DNA from: Pseudomonadota bacterium
Lineage (GTDB): Bacteria > Pseudomonadota > Alphaproteobacteria > Geminicoccales > Geminicoccaceae
Length of the DNA stretch: 54,865 bases
Direction: 5' to 3'
Assembly (NCBI GenBank): GCA_030549795.1
Contig: JAUQQO010000014.1
Span: 1-54,865 of the forward strand
This document shows positions 9,776-52,468 of the stretch, in pieces; the first letter of the stretch is position 1; the number at the start of each line of letters is the position of its first letter. The notes beneath the pieces are model-generated. The model ran no database searches. It had not been told where the DNA came from and saw nothing but the letters and a program-made list of their open reading frames with translations. Both the position numbers and the translations under genes were made by a program.

Positions 9776-10504
9776 ATGACGGGAACGGTGGTCATCGTCG
9801 GCGGCACGGGTGGGATCGGATCGGCGCTCGCGCGAAGGCTGCACGCTCAAGGGCGTCCTTTGCACCTGATCGCGCGCGAGAGCGCAAGGCTCGCGACACT
9901 TGCTTCCGAACTGGGTGCGAGCTTCGCAGCCGCCGATGTCGCCGAGCCCGCCGCGTTGCGGGCGGCGATCGAAGCGGCTGAAGCGCCGCTCGCCGGTCTC
10001 GTCTACGCGGTCGGCACGATCACGCTCAAGCCGCTCGGGCGGATCACGCTAGACGAGGTCAACCGCGACTTCGCGCTCAATGCGGCGGGCGCGCTCATAT
10101 CCGTGCAGGCGGCCTTGCCGGCCCTGCGCGCGCACGGGCCGGGTGCGGCGATCGTGCTCTTTTCCACCGTGGCCGTCCAGCGCGGCTTTCCGCTGCACGC
10201 CTCGATCGCCATGGCCAAGGGCGCGGTCGAGGGCTTAACGCGCGCGCTTGCTGCCGAGCTCGCCCCCGATATCCGCGTCAATGCCATTGCCCCCTCGCTC
10301 ACCCGCACCCCATTGGCGGCGCGCCTCGTCGACCACGCCCCCACCGCAGAGGCGATCGCGCGCCAACACCCCATGCGCCGGCTCGGGACGCCCGAGGATG
10401 TCGCAGCCCTCGCCGCCTTTCTTCTCGGACCCGAGGCCTCCTGGATCACGGGCCAGGTGATCGCGGTCGACGGCGGCCGCGGCACGGTGGAGGCGCGGCC
10501 ATAG
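9776..10504 (+). CDS. Short-chain dehydrogenase/reductase family protein lacking the active-site tyrosine
   Basis: A classical-length SDR (242 residues from the ATG at 9776, which follows GGAGGTGCC). It has the GGTGGIG cofactor motif, a DVNR-type central segment, and a C-terminal WITGQVIAVDGG closing motif. The usual YxxxK active site reads I-A-M-A-K in LHASIAMAKGAV, so the lysine is present but the catalytic tyrosine is isoleucine. The preceding serine is kept (FSTVAVQ). Either another residue supplies the proton or the protein is not a conventional dehydrogenase. Divergent SDRs of this type exist in other bacteria. It is third in a same-strand run with two other dehydrogenases. Confidence 0.75.
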   Translation: MTGTVVIVGGTGGIGSALARRLHAQGRPLHLIARESARLATLASELGASFAAADVAEPAALRAAIEAAEAPLAGLVYAVGTITLKPLGRITLDEVNRDFALNAAGALISVQAALPALRAHGPGAAIVLFSTVAVQRGFPLHASIAMAKGAVEGLTRALAAELAPDIRVNAIAPSLTRTPLAARLVDHAPTAEAIARQHPMRRLGTPEDVAALAAFLLGPEASWITGQVIAVDGGRGTVEARP

Positions 10505-10612
10505 GGCCGAGCGCGCCCGTCCGTCGTTGCGCTTGCCGTAAGGAGTGTCCTAAACTTACCATGCGCCGTTTTGAAAAGGTTCGAGGGCGGTGATCGCAGC
10601 GCCTGCGCATCG

Positions 10613-11866
10613 ATGAGAGCAGATCCGCCGGAAAATCAGGCCGAGCCGTCGGGAGTGCCGATCGAGCCCGAAACGCTGCGCTGGGCGATGAGGCGCGCTA
10701 AGGTTAGCGAAGCCCAGCTCGCGAAAGCCGTTGCTGGTGGGAAGATCGAGCGGGTGCGGGCGTGGCTTGAGGGATCGGCGCGGCCGACGCACGCGCAAAC
10801 GCACCGGATCGCGGCCAAACTCGATGTCCCCTTCCCGGTTCTCTTGGGCCCACCACCGGCCCCGTTCAAGCTGCCGGTCAGCGATTTCCGCCGCCCGGAA
10901 ACGCAAAGCCAGCCGAGCCCGGAGCTCGAGGCGGTGCTGCTCGATGCGCTGCGCAAGCGTGATTGGTATCGGGCCTATCGCCAAAAGCGCAACCCTTATG
11001 TCGGCAAGTTCGCCAACAAGCGAAGTTTCACCGAACCGCCCGCAGGTACCTTGGGATTTCTCGTCTGGCACGAGCGAGACGTGAGCCAAGAAGCCGCGTA
11101 CTGGGCCGAGCAGACGCTCGAGCTCGCGCGTCTTCGCAAAAAGGTCCGAAGCTGGACCTCCTTTCGTGCGGTACTGGCCGAGGCCATCGAGGATCGGCTT
11201 CACATCCTCGTTCTGTTGAACTCGATGGTGGGGAACAATATCCATCGGCCGCTCGATCCCGAGGAGTTCGCCGGCTTCGCGCTCGCCGACCCGATCGCAC
11301 CCTTGATTTTCGTCAACACGCGCGGCTCAGTGGCGCGATCCATCTTTACCCTCGCTCACGAGCTCGGTCATATTCTCGTTAGAGAAGATGCGCTTGACTC
11401 CGATCCTTCGGACGACGTTGCCGAGGGCCATGAGCGCTTTTGCAATCGTTTTGCTGCAGAACTCTTGATGCCCGAGAAAGAGTTTCGCTCACTCTGGCGG
11501 CAACACCAGCAGAGCGACATCAAAACTCGATGTACGGATCTTGCCCGGACATTCTTCGTGAGCTCTGAAGCAGTGTTGATTCGCGCTCATACGCTTGACC
11601 TCATTAGCGATGAGGATTTTGAGCGCCTTCACATGGCGATTCGGAGAAAATCAGAAAAGAAATCACGAGAGAGCATCAATAATGGCGGCAATTTCTGGGC
11701 CAACGTTGCGATACGTAACAGCAAAACGTTTTTCAAAGCGGTTATCGAGGCGACAAGGGCGGGCGAACTTACCTATACGAGCGCTGCTCGCCTCCTAAAT
11801 GTCAATGTAGGCACGCTCGCGCAGAGGATCTATCAAGATCGCGGTCGTGTCGCGGCCCCAGAATGA
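10613..11866 (+). CDS. ImmA/IrrE family metallo-endopeptidase with N-terminal XRE-like region
   Basis: A protein of 417 residues from the ATG at 10613; a TTG at 10571 in frame is an alternative start and neither has a strong ribosome-binding site. Residues about 15-75 resemble a degenerate helix-turn-helix region (LRWAMRRAKVSEAQLAKAV, then an AAKLDVPFP segment). The central part holds the zinc-peptidase signature AHELGHIL (H249, E250, H253), followed by a distal Glu in FCNRFAAELLMP, as in ImmA. ImmA-type peptidases usually cleave a repressor or regulate a toxin. It overlaps by 4 bp with a DUF4411 gene, a common pairing. The 3' portion is noticeably richer in A/T than the surrounding genes, suggesting acquisition. 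Confidence 0.85.
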   Translation: MRADPPENQAEPSGVPIEPETLRWAMRRAKVSEAQLAKAVAGGKIERVRAWLEGSARPTHAQTHRIAAKLDVPFPVLLGPPPAPFKLPVSDFRRPETQSQPSPELEAVLLDALRKRDWYRAYRQKRNPYVGKFANKRSFTEPPAGTLGFLVWHERDVSQEAAYWAEQTLELARLRKKVRSWTSFRAVLAEAIEDRLHILVLLNSMVGNNIHRPLDPEEFAGFALADPIAPLIFVNTRGSVARSIFTLAHELGHILVREDALDSDPSDDVAEGHERFCNRFAAELLMPEKEFRSLWRQHQQSDIKTRCTDLARTFFVSSEAVLIRAHTLDLISDEDFERLHMAIRRKSEKKSRESINNGGNFWANVAIRNSKTFFKAVIEATRAGELTYTSAARLLNVNVGTLAQRIYQDRGRVAAPE

Positions 11867-38848: not shown

Positions 38849-40084
38849 TTAAAGCGTGGCCGGCACACCGGGCGGCCACGGCAAGGGCGCGAGCAGCGCC
38901 CGCATAAGCGCGGTCCGCGCAGCCGGCACCGCCGCGAGCAAACGCAATCCCAGAGCGCGCCCGGCCGCTATCGGCGCGAACCCGCTCGCTGCGAGCGCGG
39001 CAAGGCCCTGAGTGAGCGCGAAGCGGGCGCGGATGTCGGCAAGGCGCGCCCGCTCGTAGGCGAGCAGAAGACGCGGAGATCCTGGATCCTCCCCGCGCGC
39101 TCGCGCCGCCTTCACGAGCTCGGTGAGAACCGCGACGTCGCGCAGGGAGGTGTTGAGCCCTTGCGCACCCACAGGCGAGAGCGCGTGCGCCGCCTCGCCC
39201 ACGAGCGCCGCCCGCGGAGCGACCAGGCGATCGGCCAACAGCCCCACCAGCCGATAGCCGTCGCGCCGCCCGATCGCGCCCACCGCGCCGAGCCAGGGGG
39301 CGATTCTGCGCGCGAGCTCATCGCGAAACGCATCCTCGGGCAGGGCGAGCAGGCGCTCGGCCTCCGCTTCCCGCTCGACCCAGACCAGGCTCGAGCGCTG
39401 TCCGGGAAGCGGAACCAGGGTGAAGGCACCGCCCGGCCGATGAAGCTCGACCGACACTCCCCCATGCGGCTGCGCGTGCGCAAAGCTCAAGGCGATCGCC
39501 ATCCGCCCCGTGGGTCGCTCGAGCGCGGCAATGCCGAGCGCGCGACGGACCGCCGAATGGCGGCCGTCGGCTGCGATGACAAGATCCGCTGCGACCGTGC
39601 CGCGGGCATGGACGAGGAGAACGCGCCCGCGTTCGCGCACGACGTCTTCGACCGCGGCCTCGCCCAAAAGTTCGCCCCCTTCTGCGCGCAAGGCGTCGAG
39701 AAGCGCGGCGCGCAACGTCGCAACCGGGAGATTGTAGCCGAATTGGGCAAGACCGATCTCGCGCGCTTCGAAACACACATCGGCCTCGGGCGCACCGCCG
39801 TCTTCGCGCAGGCTCACGATGCGCAGCGCGCGCAAAGGTTCCGCTGCGCCAACCAGCCGGTCCCAAACCTGAAGCCGCATAAGAAGCGCCACCGCCGGCT
39901 CGAGCAGCGCGACCGTGCGTCCCTCTTCCGGCGGCGGCTTTCCGGCTTCGGGAAGCGGGCGGGCATCTAAGACCGTCACGGCGCAGCCGAGCCGAGCAAG
40001 GGCAAGGGCCGCGGCAAGGCCTGCGGGGCCGGCACCCACGACGGCGATCTGCGGGACAGAGGCGGCGTTCGATGCGCGCTCCAT
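38849..40084 (-). CDS. FAD-dependent monooxygenase, UbiH/COQ6 family
   Basis: A 411-residue class A flavoprotein hydroxylase. It has N-terminal dinucleotide motif [16 protein letters not shown], the mid-protein DG motif [12 protein letters not shown], and the C-terminal [22 protein letters not shown] segment typical of ubiquinone-biosynthesis hydroxylases. It likely hydroxylates a ring position of the ubiquinone precursor, but which one is not clear. The ATG at 40084 has only a weak ribosome-binding site; a TTG at 40120 is the alternative. Its position between proB and proA is unusual, as the two are normally adjacent. Confidence 0.87.
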
Positions 40085-45880: not shown

Positions 45881-46828
45881 TCACACCACACGGTTCAAAA
45901 GCGGTTCGCCCGCGCGCAAGCGGCGGCAGTTCTCGACCGCAATCACAAGCGAGCGGTCGAGCGTCTCGGGCGTGAGCCAGGCAAGATGCGGCGTGAGGAC
46001 GACATCGTCGCGGCTTAAAAGCGGATGGTCGGGCGGCAGCGGCTCGAGCGCGAACACATCGAGCCCGGCTCCGGCGAGACGACCCTCTGCGAGCGCAGCT
46101 AAAAGCGCTGCTTCGTCGACGAGGCCGCCGCGCGCGGTGTTGATCAGGATCGCCCCCCGCTTGATCTGCGCCAGACGCTCAGCCGAGAGCAAAAGCCGTG
46201 TTTCGGGCACAAGCGGCAGGTGCAGCGAGACGATGTCGCTCGTCTTCAAAAGCTCGTCCAAGGGAAGATAGCGCGCCGGTGCGTCCGGCTTCGGGCTGCG
46301 GTTCCAATAGACGCATTCGGCACCCAGGGCGGTGAGCACCGGTGCGAGCAGCCGCGGCACCGCTCCCATGCCGAGAAGGCCCACGCGCTTGCCGCCGAGC
46401 TCGCCCACGCGGTCGGGAAGGTCTTCGGGCAGGCTCCACCCCGACCCGGCGCGGGTGGCGGAATCGAGAAACGGGATGCGCCGCAGCACGGCGAGCATGA
46501 GCGCAAGGGTGAGCTCGGCCACGGCGCGGCTGTTGGTGCCGGGCATGTTGCACACGGCAATCCCGCGCTTACGGCAGGCCTCAAGATCGATCGTGTTCAC
46601 GCCCACCCCGATCTTTTGCACCAAGCGCAACTTCGGCGCGGTGGCCACAAGCGCCTCGGTGACCGGCTCGAGCACGTGCCAGAGCACCTCCACTTCCGGC
46701 AGTTCGGCGATGAGGGCTCGGCGATCCGCCGCCGGCACCACGGCAACCGACAGGCCCTTCTCGCGCAGTGCCGCGAGCCGCGCGCGCAAACCCGGGCTCG
46801 CCTCGTGATGGAAGAGAACGCGTTGCAT
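45881..46828 (-). CDS. D-2-hydroxyacid dehydrogenase family protein
   Basis: A 315-residue NAD(P)-dependent dehydrogenase. It has the Rossmann motif GLLGMGAVPRLL and the catalytic triad: Arg in NTARGGLV, Glu in ALEPLPPDHPL and His in LTPHLAWLTPET. ATG at 46828 gives a natural start; the longer frame is Arg-rich. It diverges from the kinase/enolase-like/TRAP genes across 89 bp, so it probably belongs to the same pathway and shares a control region. Candidate role is reduction of a keto acid in the same degradation route (inference). Distinct from the dehydrogenase at 7917. Confidence 0.83.
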   Translation of the reverse strand: MQRVLFHHEASPGLRARLAALREKGLSVAVVPAADRRALIAELPEVEVLWHVLEPVTEALVATAPKLRLVQKIGVGVNTIDLEACRKRGIAVCNMPGTNSRAVAELTLALMLAVLRRIPFLDSATRAGSGWSLPEDLPDRVGELGGKRVGLLGMGAVPRLLAPVLTALGAECVYWNRSPKPDAPARYLPLDELLKTSDIVSLHLPLVPETRLLLSAERLAQIKRGAILINTARGGLVDEAALLAALAEGRLAGAGLDVFALEPLPPDHPLLSRDDVVLTPHLAWLTPETLDRSLVIAVENCRRLRAGEPLLNRVV

Positions 46829-46917
46829 CGCCTCGTGCTCTGCGCCAGCCTCGTCTCTGTTACGCCCCGGCCCTGGCGATGCCAAGCCGCGCGCCGCGCG
46901 AGGAGGGTGGCTCGTCG

Positions 46918-47982
46918 ATGCTGGAGACGGATTCGCGCGCCCTTGTGCACGCCGTGCTCTGCCGCGCGGGGCTCGCGATGCCCGATCGACGGCCGAGCAT
47001 GACGGCGCTTTCAGGGGGTGTTTCTTCGGACATTTGGAAAGTCGAGCTCGAGGCCGGTGCGGTGTGCGTCAAGCGGGCGCTCGCCCGCTTGAAGGTGGAA
47101 GCGGATTGGCGCGCTCCGCTCGAGCGCTCGCGCTACGAAGCGCTGTGGCTCAAAACGGCGGGCGCGATCGTCCCCGAGGCGGTACCTCAGCTCCTGCACT
47201 TCGACCGCGCAGCAGGCGCGCTCGTGCTCTCCTTCCTCGACCCCTCGGCGTTTCGGGTGTGGAAGAGCGAGCTGCGCGACGGTCGCGCCGAGCCGGATTT
47301 GGCTGCCGCGGTAGGTGAACGGCTGGTGCGCATCCACCGAGCCACCGCCCTCGACCCCGAGATCGCGCGCCGCTTCGCAACCGACACTATTTTCCACGCC
47401 ATCCGCCTCGAACCCTATCTCTTGGCCACCGCCCGCCGACATCCCGACCTCGCGCGTGCGCTCGCGCGGCTGGCGCGGCGTACCGGCGGCACCAAGCTCG
47501 TCCTCGTCCATGGCGATGTGAGCCCCAAGAACATCTTGTGCGGGCCCAATGGTCCCGTCTTTTTGGACGCCGAGTGCGCCTGGTACGGTGATCCCGCCTT
47601 CGATCTCGCCTTCTGTCTCAACCATTTGTTCTTGAAGTGCCTGTGGACGCCGGCTGCCGCCCCGGGCTTTCTCGCCTGCTTCGATGCCCTCCTCGAAGCC
47701 TATATGGCGGGCGTGGTGTGGGAGCCGCGGGCGGCGCTCGAAGCCCGGGCGGCGATGCTGTTGCCCGCGCTCATGCTCGCGCGGGTCGACGGCAAATCAC
47801 CGGTCGAATATCTCACCGATGAAGCCCAAAAAGACCGCGTGCGCCGGGTCGCGCGTTCGTTTCTCAAACATCCCGAGCGCCGCCTTACCCCCTTGCGCCG
47901 GGCGTGGGCGGCCGAAGTCCAAGTCCAAGCGCGCAACGAGGCCCAACAGACGACCGCACAAACGGCGGAGCGCGGGCGATGA
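46918..47982 (+). CDS. Phosphotransferase, aminoglycoside phosphotransferase (APH) fold
   Basis: A 354-residue small-molecule kinase of the APH/choline kinase fold. Catalytic HGD motif is H198-G-D200 in LVHGDVSPKNILCG, and the metal-binding acid is in VFLDAECAWYGDPAFDLAF. An early lysine lies in VCVKRALARLKVE. Start ATG at 46918 after AGGAGGGTGG; the longer upstream frame overlaps the divergent gene. Its stop overlaps the enolase-like start (ATGA). Together they suggest that this kinase makes a phosphorylated hydroxy acid that the enolase-like protein then dehydrates (inference). Aminoglycoside resistance is unlikely in this context. Confidence 0.85.
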   Translation: MLETDSRALVHAVLCRAGLAMPDRRPSMTALSGGVSSDIWKVELEAGAVCVKRALARLKVEADWRAPLERSRYEALWLKTAGAIVPEAVPQLLHFDRAAGALVLSFLDPSAFRVWKSELRDGRAEPDLAAAVGERLVRIHRATALDPEIARRFATDTIFHAIRLEPYLLATARRHPDLARALARLARRTGGTKLVLVHGDVSPKNILCGPNGPVFLDAECAWYGDPAFDLAFCLNHLFLKCLWTPAAAPGFLACFDALLEAYMAGVVWEPRAALEARAAMLLPALMLARVDGKSPVEYLTDEAQKDRVRRVARSFLKHPERRLTPLRRAWAAEVQVQARNEAQQTTAQTAERGR

Positions 47983-49289
47983 GCCGGACCAGGATCGTGG
48001 CGGTGCGCGGGCGGCGGGTGTGGGACAGCCGCGGCCGGCCGACAGTGGAAGCGGAAATCGAGCTCGCAAGGGGTGCGATCGGGCGCGCCATTGCCCCCGC
48101 CGGCGCCTCGACCGGCCGCGGCGAGGCGCTCGAGCGCCGCGACGGCGGTCCACGGCTTTGCGGTTTCGACGTGCAGGGTGCAGTGGCGGCGATCAACGGC
48201 ACCATCGCCCGCGCGCTCATCGGGCTCGCCGCGGCCGATCAGGAAGCGGTCGACCGCAGCCTGATCGCACTCGACGGTACTCCCACCAAGAGCCGCCTGG
48301 GTGCGAATGCGATCGTTGCCACCTCGCTGGCCACCGCCCAAGCGGCCGCAGCCGCCCATGGCCTGCCGCTTTGGCGCTGGCTCGGCGGCGCCGCCGCCTG
48401 CACCCTGCCCTTACCCGAGATCCAGATCATTGGCGGCGGCAAACACGCCGCCGGGCGGATCGACCTGCAGGACGTGCTCGTCGTCTGTCCGGGTGCTCAA
48501 AGTTTCGCTCAGGCCCTTCTCTGGACGGCGGAAGTGTACCACGCGGCCGGCGCGCTTCTGGCCGAAGCCGGACGGCTCAAAGGGGTGGCGGATGAAGGCG
48601 GGTTCTTCCCCGAGCTCGAGAGCAACGAAGCGGCGATCGCCCTCGTTGCGCGCGCGATCGAGCGGGCCGGGCTGCGCGCTCCCGATCAGGTGGCGATCGC
48701 TCTCGATGTCGCCGCCTCGAGCTTCGGCTGCAACGGGCGCTATCACCTGGCGAGCGAAGGGCGCACCCTCGACACGGAGGCCATGATCGAGCTGTTGAGC
48801 TCCTGGATCGCCCGCTATCCGATCGTCTCGATCGAAGATCCGCTCGCCGAAGACGATCCCGAAGGCTTTCGCGCCTTCACCGCACGCTTTAGGTCCCGCA
48901 TTCAAATCATAGGTGACGATCTTCTCGTCACCTCCGCCGAGCGCGTGCGACGCGCGGCGCGCGAGGGTTGGTGCACCGCAGTGCTGCTTAAGCCCAATCA
49001 AGTGGGGACCTTGAGCGAAACCGCAGCCGCCTGGCAGGCAGCGCGGGAGGGCGGGCTCGGCGGCATCGTATCGGCTCGCTCGGGGGAGAGCGAGGACACG
49101 ACGATCGTGCATTTGGCGGTGGGCTTGGGGGTGCCGCAGCTCAAGGTCGGTTCGCTCGCCCGTGGCGAGCGTACCGCCAAGTGGAACGAGGCGCTGCGCA
49201 TCGAAGAAGCGCTCGGGCCGCGCGCCCGCTTCGCCGGTCGGGCGGCTTTGCGCAGCGCGCCGGGCGCAAATGGACAAGTCCGCCTTTAG
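47979..49289 (+). CDS. Enolase paralog (phosphopyruvate hydratase-like)
   Basis: A 436-residue enolase-fold protein, close to normal enolase length. The conserved features are GASTGRGEALERRDGG, the ligand region GGGKHAAGRIDLQDV, acid/base Glu E206 in DEGGF, metal acids in SIEDPLAEDD and GDDLLVT, catalytic base K338 in LLKPNQVGTLSET, and K389 in LKVGSLARGERTAKWN. The usual SHRSGE motif reads SARSGE (A366), so the phosphate-contacting His is missing. It is probably a paralog with a different phosphorylated substrate rather than the glycolytic enzyme. The start overlaps the APH-fold kinase stop by 4 bp, linking the two. Confidence 0.85.
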   Translation: MSRTRIVAVRGRRVWDSRGRPTVEAEIELARGAIGRAIAPAGASTGRGEALERRDGGPRLCGFDVQGAVAAINGTIARALIGLAAADQEAVDRSLIALDGTPTKSRLGANAIVATSLATAQAAAAAHGLPLWRWLGGAAACTLPLPEIQIIGGGKHAAGRIDLQDVLVVCPGAQSFAQALLWTAEVYHAAGALLAEAGRLKGVADEGGFFPELESNEAAIALVARAIERAGLRAPDQVAIALDVAASSFGCNGRYHLASEGRTLDTEAMIELLSSWIARYPIVSIEDPLAEDDPEGFRAFTARFRSRIQIIGDDLLVTSAERVRRAAREGWCTAVLLKPNQVGTLSETAAAWQAAREGGLGGIVSARSGESEDTTIVHLAVGLGVPQLKVGSLARGERTAKWNEALRIEEALGPRARFAGRAALRSAPGANGQVRL

Positions 49290-49373: not shown

Positions 49374-50345
49374 ATGCGGATGCGTGTACTGCTTGCCACG
49401 ACGGCATTCCTCTTCGCATCGGTCGGCGCCGCCTTGGCCGAGAAGTGGGACATGCCGCTTGCCTATCCCGAGACCAATTTCCACACCGAGAACGCCAAGG
49501 CCTTCGCCGCTTGCATCAAAGAGGGCACGAAGGGTGCGATCGAGATCGTCACGCATGCCAACGGCTCGCTTTTTAAGGGCGGCGAGATCAAGCGCGCGGT
49601 GCAGACCGGGCAGGCGCCGATCGGCGAGCGGCTGCTCTCCGCGCACGAGAACGAGAACGCGCTTTTCGGCTTCGACGCCGTACCCTTCCTCGCGACTTCC
49701 TACGAACAATCGGACAAGCTCGAGAGAGCAGCGCGGCCTTATCTCGAAAAGCTGTTGGACAAGCAGAACCTCGTGCTGCTCTATACCGTTCCCTGGCCAC
49801 CTCAGGGCATTTACACAAAAAAGCCCTTGAAGACCGGAGCGGACATGAAGGGTGTGAAGTTCCGCTCCTATAATGCCGCTACCGCCCGCCTAGCAGAACT
49901 CTTGGGCGCGCAGCCGGTCCAGATCGAGGCGGCGGAGCTCGCGCAAGCGCTCGCCACGGGTGTGGTCGAGAGCTTCATCAGCTCGGGTTCCACCGGCTAT
50001 GACATCAAGGTGTGGGAGCATCTGCGCTATTGGTACGACACCCAGGCTTGGCTTCCGCGCAATTCCGTGTTCGTGAACAAAGCGGCCTGGAACGGGCTCA
50101 AGCCCGAGCAACAAGAAGTCTTCAAAAAGTGCGCGCAAGAGGCCCAGGCCCGCGGCACTGCCAAAAGCAAAGAGCTCGCCAACTGGTACATCGAACAGTT
50201 GAGGGCCAAGGGCATGGTGGTGGAGCCGGCGAGCCCTGAACTGGCTGCCGATCTCAAGCGCGTGGGCGAGGTGATGACCCAGGACTGGCTCGCGCGCGCG
50301 GGCGAGGACGGCAAGGCGATCATCGAGGCCTACCGCAAGCTTTAA
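49374..50345 (+). CDS. dctP: TRAP transporter substrate-binding protein DctP
   Basis: The periplasmic receptor of a TRAP system (323 residues). A signal peptide covers residues 1-22 (ending GAALA). The mature protein has the TRAP/DctP fold: KWDMPLAYPETNFHTENAKAF, the KGVKFRSYNAATARLAELLGAQPV segment with the conserved carboxylate-binding Arg, and a long hinge helix VVESFISSGSTGYDIKVWEH. TRAP ligands are usually organic acids; here the likely ligand is a hydroxy or sugar acid used by the neighbouring kinase and enolase-like enzyme (inference). ATG at 49374 after GGAGGCGAT. A hairpin and dctQ follow. Confidence 0.93.
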   Translation: MRMRVLLATTAFLFASVGAALAEKWDMPLAYPETNFHTENAKAFAACIKEGTKGAIEIVTHANGSLFKGGEIKRAVQTGQAPIGERLLSAHENENALFGFDAVPFLATSYEQSDKLERAARPYLEKLLDKQNLVLLYTVPWPPQGIYTKKPLKTGADMKGVKFRSYNAATARLAELLGAQPVQIEAAELAQALATGVVESFISSGSTGYDIKVWEHLRYWYDTQAWLPRNSVFVNKAAWNGLKPEQQEVFKKCAQEAQARGTAKSKELANWYIEQLRAKGMVVEPASPELAADLKRVGEVMTQDWLARAGEDGKAIIEAYRKL

Positions 50346-50354
50346 GGCCGAAAC

Positions 50355-50389
50355 GCGCGGTCCGCGGCCCGTGCGGTTGCGGACCGCGC
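50355..50389 (+). promoter_or_regulatory. 11-bp hairpin between dctP and dctQ
   Basis: GCGCGGTCCGC at 50355-50365 pairs perfectly with GCGGACCGCGC at 50379-50389 around a 13-base loop. It begins 10 bp after the dctP stop and no T-run follows. Such hairpins commonly stabilise the abundant binding-protein mRNA while letting some read-through into the membrane subunits. Functional role is inferred. Confidence 0.65.
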
Positions 50390-50427
50390 CGCGCACCCGC
50401 GACAATTGAGCCCACTTCTAGGCATCC

Positions 50428-50991
50428 ATGCTTCGCCGCGCGCTCGAGCGTCTCTATGATGCCGCTGGGGTCCTAGCGGCAGTTGCGATGGTCGCCATTC
50501 TCGTGACCATCATCACCCAGATCCTCGCCCGCACGCTCGGCTTCAAGTTCCCCGGCGGCACCGATTATGCCGGCTATTTCATGGCCGCTGCGTCCTTCTT
50601 CGCCCTCGCCCACACCTTCCGTCGCGGCGGCCACATTCGCGTCGAGCTGTTGTTGCAGCGCCTCGCACCAGCCAAACGGCGCCGGATCGAGCTCGCAGCG
50701 CACGCGATCGGCGCCGCGCTCGCCTGGTACTTCGCCTTTTTCGCGATCCGCGGGGTGCATATCTCTTGGATCCTCGGCGATGTGAGCCAGGGCCAGGACG
50801 CCACCCCTCTGTGGATCCCACAGCTTTCGATGGCGCTTGGCGTTCTTCTCTTGGCCATTGCGGTGAGCCACCGGCTGATCGAGCTCGTGTTCGACGTGGC
50901 GCCCGCTTATGAAAAGGGTCGAGGGGCGCAGATCACAGAGCCGCGCCCACCCCAAGTCGATCCATCCGGCACGCGCCGAGCCCCCTCGTGA
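50428..50991 (+). CDS. dctQ: TRAP transporter small membrane subunit DctQ
   Basis: A 187-residue inner-membrane protein with four helices. The first is VLAAVAMVAILVTIITQILAR. The second contains GYFMAAASFFALAHTFRRGGHIRVELLLQRL, the hallmark of DctQ. The third and fourth surround IGAALAWYFAFFAIRG and a helix ending LAIAVSHRLIEL. A 30-residue polar tail follows. It lies 82 bp after dctP. No DctM channel gene follows; the next intact frame downstream is a glycosyltransferase. Confidence 0.92.
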   Translation: MLRRALERLYDAAGVLAAVAMVAILVTIITQILARTLGFKFPGGTDYAGYFMAAASFFALAHTFRRGGHIRVELLLQRLAPAKRRRIELAAHAIGAALAWYFAFFAIRGVHISWILGDVSQGQDATPLWIPQLSMALGVLLLAIAVSHRLIELVFDVAPAYEKGRGAQITEPRPPQVDPSGTRRAPS

Positions 50992-51162
50992 GCCGCAACG
51001 CCCACCTCCTGCCGCCTCGGCCCGTTGTCGATCGGACCGCAAAGGAAGGGTGCGGCGGCTGCTGAGTGCCGAGGGCGCCGAAAGATCAACCCCGAGGGCT
51101 GCACGGGCATCGCTCAACCTTTCGAGCGAGACGTGGTCCCTTGCGCATCCAGGGAGGAAAGG

Positions 51163-52468
51163 ATGCGAATCCTGTTGGTGAGCCAGCCGCGCGATCCCGT
51201 CTCGGCCAGCGGCGCGCAATCGGGCTCGGTTGCGATCGTAACCCGCGCGCTCGCACACGCGCTCGCTTGCCAACACGAGGTCACCATCGTAGCGCCGCGC
51301 GCCGCGGACCAGCGTAGCGAAGAAACGGCGCCAGACGGGGTGCGCATCCTGCGCGTGCCGAGCGGCGCGCGCACATTGCACCGCCTGCTCGATTTTCTAA
51401 GCGGTCTCCATCCTGCGGCCTCACCGCACCTGTTGGCCGATTCCTACCACCTCGCCTACCAGCGCGCGGTCGAGCAAGTGATCGCCCGCGAGCGACCCGA
51501 TCTCGTCCACGTCATGTCACTTGCACCGCTCGTGCCGCGGCTGGCGCGCGCGTTCCCCGCCATCCCGCGGATCTTGCACCTCCACGACGGCTTTCTTTTG
51601 ACGATCGACCGCGCGCGCCCGAAAACGGCTTGCCGCTGTGACGCTTGTGCTTGTTCCAAGCGCATGGCTCGCAAGAGCCTTCCTCCACTTTTTCCCGGAT
51701 CTTGGGGATAAGATCTGCGTCCTTCCCAATGGCGTCGATACCGAGCGTTTTCGCCCTAATGCAACGGGTGGCGCTGAGCACCCGCCGCGGCTTCTCTTCG
51801 TGGGCCGTCTTTCGCCCGAAAAAGGCGTGCACGTAGCGGTCGCAGCCTTCGCCCGGCTGGCACCGCGTCATCCCGCGCTCGTCCTCGAGCTCGTCGGGGA
51901 GCCGGGCCTTATGCCCTATGCCTATCTTGCCTGCCTGCCGCGCACACCGGCGCTTGAGGATGCCCTCGCCTTTTACGGGCGCAGCATCGGTGCGCGCCTG
52001 TATCGCGAACTTTTGCTGCGCGCGCGGGCTTACCTCGCGCCCATTCTCGCCGGCCTCCCGCCGCCCGTCCGCGCCCGCGTTCGCATCGTGGGCGCGATCC
52101 CCCATGATCGATTGCCCGCGATCTACCGCACCGCCACGCTTTTGCTCGCCCCCTCGGTGTGGGACGAACCCTTCGGCATGCCGGTGATCGAGGCCATGGC
52201 CAGGGGTGTTCCCGTGGTGGCGAGTGACAGTGGAGCCTTTGCAGAACTGCTCGACGGCCCCGACAGCGAGCGCGCTGGTGTGTTGGTCCCCAAAGGCGAC
52301 GCGCAGGCGCTCGCCGAAGCGATCGAGGCGCTGCTGGCTGATCCCGATCGCCGTCGCGCGCTCGGGGAGGCCGGCCGCCGTCGCGCCGTGTCGCGCTTCG
52401 CCTGGCCGACCGTTGGACAGTGCTTGGATGCGCGGTATCGGGCGATTGTCGCGCGCGCAGCCGGTTGA
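51163..52468 (+). pseudogene. Glycosyltransferase family 4, disrupted by a frameshift
   Basis: The gene is split over two frames. The first part (start ATG 51163 after GGAGGAAAGG) gives MRILLVSQPRDP and an RPDLVHVMSLAPLVPRLA region, and runs to about 51640. The second part continues in the +1 frame with LVLVPSAWLARAF, VLPNGVDTERFRPN and LLFVGRLSPEKGVHVA, then a donor-sugar motif (APSVWDEPFGMPVIEAMARGVPVVASDSG), ending at 52468. Joining the parts by removing one base near 51622-51640 (an A4 run lies at 51622-51625) restores one GT4 enzyme of about 434 residues. It could be a real pseudogene or a sequencing error. Role likely in surface polysaccharide assembly. Confidence 0.75.

Follow-up and report, generated by a model that had tools for sequence, protein, structure and literature searches.

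Can a TRAP transporter be complete when the genes for its solute-binding protein, DctP, and its small membrane subunit, DctQ, lie side by side without the gene for the third subunit, DctM? This question is raised by a stretch of 54,865 bases from a member of the Geminicoccaceae, termed "the window" in the following, which comprises an entire contig (C3) of a 3.16 Mb genome (G000) in 57 contigs. According to PMC5812351, the DctQ and DctM subunits form a tight 1:1 complex. With a probability of roughly 80%, the window encodes part of a standard three-part TRAP importer, the genes of which occupy two chromosomal places, an ancestral gene row having been split between dctQ and dctM and the subunits assembling in trans. 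Here, we describe the two loci, outline their distribution and history, and discuss the substrate that the transporter may import.

The dctPQ locus and its junction

The features of the two loci are compiled in Table 1. The first-pass annotation had described dctP and dctQ without dctM, and this observation is confirmed by Pfam over the whole contig. A PF06808 search of the whole genome placed no DctM on C3, and tblastn with orthologous DctM as query (E ≤ 0.05) detected no trace of dctM anywhere in the window. Likewise, the claim that the bases after dctQ carry no dctM and that a polysaccharide gene begins at 51163 holds: the interval is free of TRAP subunits, and a group-4 glycosyltransferase gene comes next. 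No dctM is present upstream of dctP either; an enolase, an APH-family kinase and a D-2-hydroxyacid dehydrogenase are encoded there instead.

Table 1. Coordinates of the genes and the junction discussed in the text (window positions unless a contig is given)
Feature	Position	Strand	Characteristics
D-2-hydroxyacid dehydrogenase	45881..46885	-	PF02826/PF00389; outer edge of left half; adjoins APH in 5 other genus genomes
APH-family kinase	46888..47982	+	PF01636 for frame 46768-47982; paired with enolase in many family genomes
Second enolase gene	47979..49289	+	TIGR01060 above cut-off; left of dctPQ, 84 bases before dctP
dctP, TRAP solute-binding protein, 323 aa	49374..50345	+	PF03480 135.6 bits; NCBIfam TRAP_S1 above cut-off; closest to pyroglutamate-type DctP proteins
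dctQ, small TRAP membrane subunit, 187 aa	50428..50991	+	PF04290 75.7 bits, above cut-off, profile 1-130/132
Junction, 171 bases	50992..51162	+	Position of dctM in contiguous relatives; without TRAP sequence or dctM remnant
Group-4 glycosyltransferase, two frames	51163..52468	+	PF13579 in 51163-51711, PF00534 in 51638-52468; right of junction
Lone dctM	C45:7858-9225	-	455 aa from start used here; 476 aa from 9288

The window DctQ is a separate frame of 187 aa and not part of a single fused QM protein, as would be expected of a fused DctQM or TAXI-TRAP system; it matches PF04290 but no NCBIfam model. DctP starts with a putative hydrophobic export leader, read by eye from the sequence. The GC content of dctP (0.615) is lower than that of the enolase gene (0.697) and of the window (0.669), and no composition step is found at the junction. 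Two overlapping frames make up the glycosyltransferase gene 3' of the junction, the two parts of which are contained in a single open frame in G001; the double frame reflects either a frameshift or a sequence error.

In a genome of 57 contigs, the adjacency of dctQ and the glycosyltransferase gene might be put down to an assembly misjoin at 50990-51170. Yet, four of the five other genomes of the genus (G001, G002, G004, G005) show the same order, dehydrogenase-APH-enolase-dctP-dctQ-glycosyltransferase without dctM, with dctM located elsewhere. Among them, the single-contig genome G005 carries dctPQ on the plus strand at approximately 3.271 Mb and dctM on the minus strand at approximately 3.585 Mb, about 313 kb apart. 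Since the junction order is identical in these four genomes, one of them a single contig, an assembly fault is extremely unlikely. The first-pass annotation had proposed such a synteny comparison and had named, as grounds against its reading, dctM directly after dctQ in relatives together with a misassembly of this strain; the former is indeed the case in other genera, but the latter is not. In the fifth genome, G003, dctM lies among its usual genus neighbours, and the contig bearing the enolase gene ends 19 bases past the enolase match. A natural loss of dctP in G003 can thus not be claimed.

A lone dctM and the TRAP inventory of the genome

A search of the genome for an orphan dctM, as had been suggested, yielded exactly one, and the proposal that DctM is encoded elsewhere proved correct: an intact, orthologous dctM stands alone on C45. 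Hence, the DctPQM genes, which usually but not universally form one cluster, do not do so here, dctM being on another contig. The C45 protein is full-length and unfused (TIGR00786, 384 bits, above cut-off, profile positions 1-405 of 405, C45:7858-9288). Among the matches listed, it is 77%, 71%, 74% and 61% identical to the DctM that follows orthologous dctPQ in G017, G029, G009 and G063, respectively (4 of 11), as compared to 41-44% for its nearest paralogue in the own genome. By this sequence comparison, the C45 DctM is orthologous to the natural partner of the window dctPQ.

The genome harbours 20 DctM genes (21 PF06808 matches, two of which are parts of one frame on C4), 16 DctQ and 19 DctP genes. 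By position, 15 DctM genes are unfused with an adjoining DctQ, four are fused DctQM genes (on C15, C46, C47 and C50; TRAP_fused above cut-off) and one is alone. Correspondingly, 15 of the 16 DctQ genes lie beside a DctM, and the window DctQ is the sole one without. Twenty DctM genes in 3.16 Mb (L001-L020) amount to a large TRAP load. Two DctQ-DctM pairs are found side by side on C41, and one DctM gene (L058, G000:C4:23202-24698) was matched in two stretches of a single 567-aa frame, which seems to carry extra sequence in its middle.

Given 19 other DctM genes, the window DctP and DctQ could use one of these as a shared partner, while the C45 DctM serves something else; subunits acting in trans are required either way. 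We regard such sharing as unlikely, since each of the other DctM proteins is already provided with an adjoining or fused DctQ, the natural partner has its orthologue in the C45 protein, and dctP was never seen without a C45-type dctM in 31 genomes of the family. A functional split has a similarly low probability: dctPQ would belong to a transcription unit with the kinase and the second enolase, and dctM would be expressed from its own promoter, separately regulated and maybe shared by several DctPQ pairs, in the manner of a modular TRAP system. A common operon of dctPQ and enolase does not hold for all split genomes, as an opposite-strand alpha/beta hydrolase gene intervenes in G005.

Distribution of the split arrangement in the family

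The survey of the family covered 31 genomes (G000-G030), with orthologues recognised at about 60% identity for dctP and about 69% for dctM. Both orthologues are present in 20 genomes, including partial ones in G010, G023 and G028; dctM only is found in two (G003, and G030, where dctM is cut by the contig start), dctP only in none, and neither in nine. This co-occurrence corresponds to a Fisher p of 2.7e-6, a value that ignores the relatedness of the genomes. Four of the nine genomes with neither orthologue (G008, G013, G014, G015) carry, on a single contig, a more remote pair of DctP and DctM (32-45% and 56-60%).

Within the group of 20, the genes are split in ten (G000, G001, G002, G004, G005, G010, G012, G016, G021, G024) and contiguous in eight (G006, G009, G017, G019, G020, G023, G025, G029). 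In G026, dctQ and dctM are contiguous and dctP lies at the end of another contig, and in G028 contig ends interrupt the reading. The split set has been kept in members of four genera, the own genus and three others.

A second view of the arrangement is provided by the best 80 of 576 relatives, which speak for close relatives only: in 72 of these 80, a DctM that shares at least 45% identity with the C45 protein is encoded within 4.5 kb after dctP, four lack one despite room (G002, G012, G024 and Alpha proteobacterium BAL199), and in four the sequence is too short. A DctQ-type frame lies near dctP in 79 of the same 80. In strain BAL199 (L155), the dctP orthologue (10001-10972) is followed by neither dctQ nor dctM, and a 68% identical dctM is located about 8 kb away on the other strand.

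Selection and co-variation of the separated genes

Pairwise dN/dS values within the genus are 0.06-0.21 for dctP (10 pairs), 0.09-0.31 for dctQ (10 pairs) and 0.08-0.15 for dctM (6 of 10 pairs), similar to the yardsticks enolase (0.13-0.23) and PfkB (0.12-0.22). The remaining four dctM pairs, all of which involve G002, gave values of 2.0-2.6 and were dropped, as the aligned stretch crossed a stop upstream of the start, which presumably shifted the codons. All three genes are under purifying selection.

These values bear on the notion that dctPQ and the dctM on C45 might be the decaying remains of a transporter no longer intact. Expression of the separated subunits could be unbalanced, and according to PMC5812351, a related DctP of B. 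pertussis is expressed although its membrane components seem to be mutated. Nevertheless, decay appears quite improbable, considering that each of the three genes has an intact frame spanning its profile, that dN/dS is far below 1 and that the split set is retained across genera.

Trees and distances were calculated for 32 genomes or records; G010, G023, G026 and G028 (cut or partial genes) as well as G003 (no dctP) were left out. The distances of DctP and DctM correlate at 0.953 over nine split and 0.776 over 23 contiguous genomes, a correlation that vertical inheritance alone can give.

Gene neighbourhoods and history of the split

In the neighbourhoods compared, a DctQ match follows DctP in all 17 rows that hold DctP, and the flanks of the two loci overlap from genome to genome. 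The contiguous genomes G006 and G020 show DUF1232-dctP-dctQ-dctM-methyltransferase-small protein-bactofilin in one row. The split genomes continue this row to the left: G021 has APH-enolase-DUF1232-dctP-dctQ without dctM, G012 has an APH-like gene-DUF1232-dctP-dctQ, and G024 has dehydrogenase-APH-enolase-DUF1232-cyclase-dctP-dctQ and, elsewhere, dctM-methyltransferase-small protein-bactofilin-PfkB. The five genus members with dctPQ show enolase-dctP-dctQ and no DUF1232 match. In the six genomes of the genus and in G024, the lone dctM adjoins the methyltransferase, small protein, bactofilin and PfkB kinase genes, with a MatE gene intervening in G005. The small protein beside the methyltransferase ("Lip") has no Pfam family match.

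Because the neighbourhoods overlap in this way, they suggest an older cluster, enolase-DUF1232-P-Q-M-methyltransferase, which would have been split between dctQ and dctM. The ancestral row may have read DH-APH-enolase-DUF1232-dctP-dctQ-dctM-methyltransferase-small protein-bactofilin-PfkB kinase; this order is assembled from overlapping neighbourhoods, and in no genome is the stretch between enolase and methyltransferase seen complete, with P-Q-M enclosed. A chromosomal rearrangement, for example an inversion, would then have parted dctQ from dctM, with the outer neighbours kept in most split genomes. An inversion fits the opposite strands of dctPQ and dctM in G005. The first-pass annotation had proposed that a rearrangement removed dctM: a rearrangement between dctQ and dctM is indeed likely in view of the overlaps, but removal is wrong, as dctM was only separated.

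Alternatively, dctPQ might have been relocated together, in one or more events and mostly to the site of the enolase and kinase genes, with dctM remaining next to the methyltransferase gene, so that a single row from enolase to bactofilin never existed. APH-enolase pairs without dctPQ occur in the stretches of G017, G009, G006, G020, G007, G022, G008, G014 and G011 and, among the split genomes, in G016 and G010, where the enolase-DUF1232 block has no adjoining dctPQ in the stretch read. The trees point in the same direction by favouring more than one change of state: the label "split" has to change three times on the DctP tree and twice on the DctM tree, and a single change suffices in 0% (DctP) and 5% (DctM) of 200 bootstrap trees, with no well-supported branch forcing more than one. 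Against such a movement, DUF1232 adjoins dctP in the contiguous genomes G006 and G020, and it lies between dctP and either enolase (G021, G024) or APH (G012) in split ones. Moreover, in G011 and G022, which are devoid of orthologous dctPQM, no more than about 4 kb separates the enolase flank from the methyltransferase flank. A mere relocation of dctPQ to an enolase operon is weakened by this DUF1232 bridge and is kept as a rival history; on balance, we consider a movement of dctPQ possible, if somewhat doubtful.

With the break between dctQ and dctM as the preferred reading, the history would comprise either a single break followed by shuffling or more than one event. The sequence 3' of dctQ varies by genus, with the glycosyltransferase gene in the own genus and PutA in G024 and G016, and in the split genome G021 no methyltransferase gene lies within 3.2 kb after dctM. 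No footprint of the breakpoint was found, the best match between the dctQ side and the dctM locus comprising 22 bases (E 0.02). A 33-base match of the region upstream of the lone C45 dctM lies at 39881-39911 of the window (88% identical in reverse, E 4e-5), not at the junction, and may represent a dispersed repeat.

The second enolase and the APH-family kinase, often joined by the 2-hydroxyacid dehydrogenase, constitute a set that occurs in many genomes of the family, with or without adjoining dctPQ. The other enolase of the own genome is encoded on C12. In the window, this set (45881-49289) could convert a hydroxy acid to PEP by a side path.

Predicted ligand of DctP

The window DctP is 59%, 50% and 43% identical to the proteins of the PDB entries 6wgm, 2pfz and 2pfy, respectively. 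These are by far the best matches (E-values 2.7e-113, 1.4e-96 and 1.6e-82), the next PDB chain following at 4.4e-21. We take 2pfz and 2pfy to be the two pyroglutamate-bound DctP proteins of B. pertussis, and the 6wgm structure presumably holds pyroglutamate as well. The residues Arg164, Tyr166, Trp141, Gln144 and Asn235 of the window DctP are common to all three proteins. R164 is invariant in 18 DctP orthologues in addition to its presence in the three structures, and it is a putative counterpart of Arg-147 of SiaP. At that position, an arginine is found in 96.8% of DctP-family proteins, according to PMC4646407. Crystals of two B. pertussis DctP proteins with pyroglutamic acid are described in PMC5812351 and PMC12344293, both of which refer to Rucktooa 2007.

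Owing to the resemblance of the window DctP to pyroglutamate-binding relatives, its substrate is likely a small cyclic carboxylate, and pyroglutamate is the likely ligand on the grounds of homology. The gene context agrees with glutamate- or proline-type compounds. In two g12 genomes, G024 and G016 (L070 3978-7805; L073 2-2083), PutA comes immediately after dctPQ, a hint at substrates of the proline/glutamate type. In addition, among the best 80 of 576 relatives, 50 have, near dctP, a frame that clusters with a DAO-family oxidoreductase and 38 one that clusters with a relative of Asp/Glu racemases, one representative of each having been named by Pfam. The own genome contains one LamB/YcsF (5-oxoprolinase-type) gene, located on C46.

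Working model and comparison with known TRAP systems

In the proposed mechanism, the proteins encoded by the two loci would assemble in trans. DctP would catch a small carboxylate in the periplasm, with pyroglutamate or a related cyclic compound as the most likely candidate, and hand it over to the DctQ-DctM pair, where DctM would import it together with sodium or protons. The system is a TRAP importer of the ordinary kind; what is unusual is its split layout, which extends across the lineage. Its function in trans is predicted.

The biochemistry being otherwise ordinary, the lineage-wide split is the noteworthy part. The lack of dctM beside dctPQ need not mean that a TRAP system is broken, and an annotation that expects operons would call a split transporter incomplete. 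Furthermore, the locus is a naturally occurring example of an operon divided between two tight 1:1 subunits and thus bears on the question whether the assembly of DctQ and DctM needs a common message.

In the literature searched, no TRAP system was found whose dctM lies apart from dctPQ. Contiguous DctP-Q-M transporters with a similar DctP comprise the same three protein families, their DctP being 43-59% identical to the window protein in the case of 6wgm, 2pfz and 2pfy; yet their dctM is linked, whereas here it is unlinked from dctPQ. The pyroglutamate DctP proteins of B. pertussis are, besides 6wgm, the nearest solved relatives of the window DctP, and the relation is one of sequence. Finally, the orphan TRAP solute-binding proteins treated in PMC12344293 likewise exemplify a TRAP gene away from its membrane partner. 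In contrast to these orphans, the binding protein in the window keeps its DctQ, and only DctM is encoded elsewhere, as an orphan with an identifiable orthologue.
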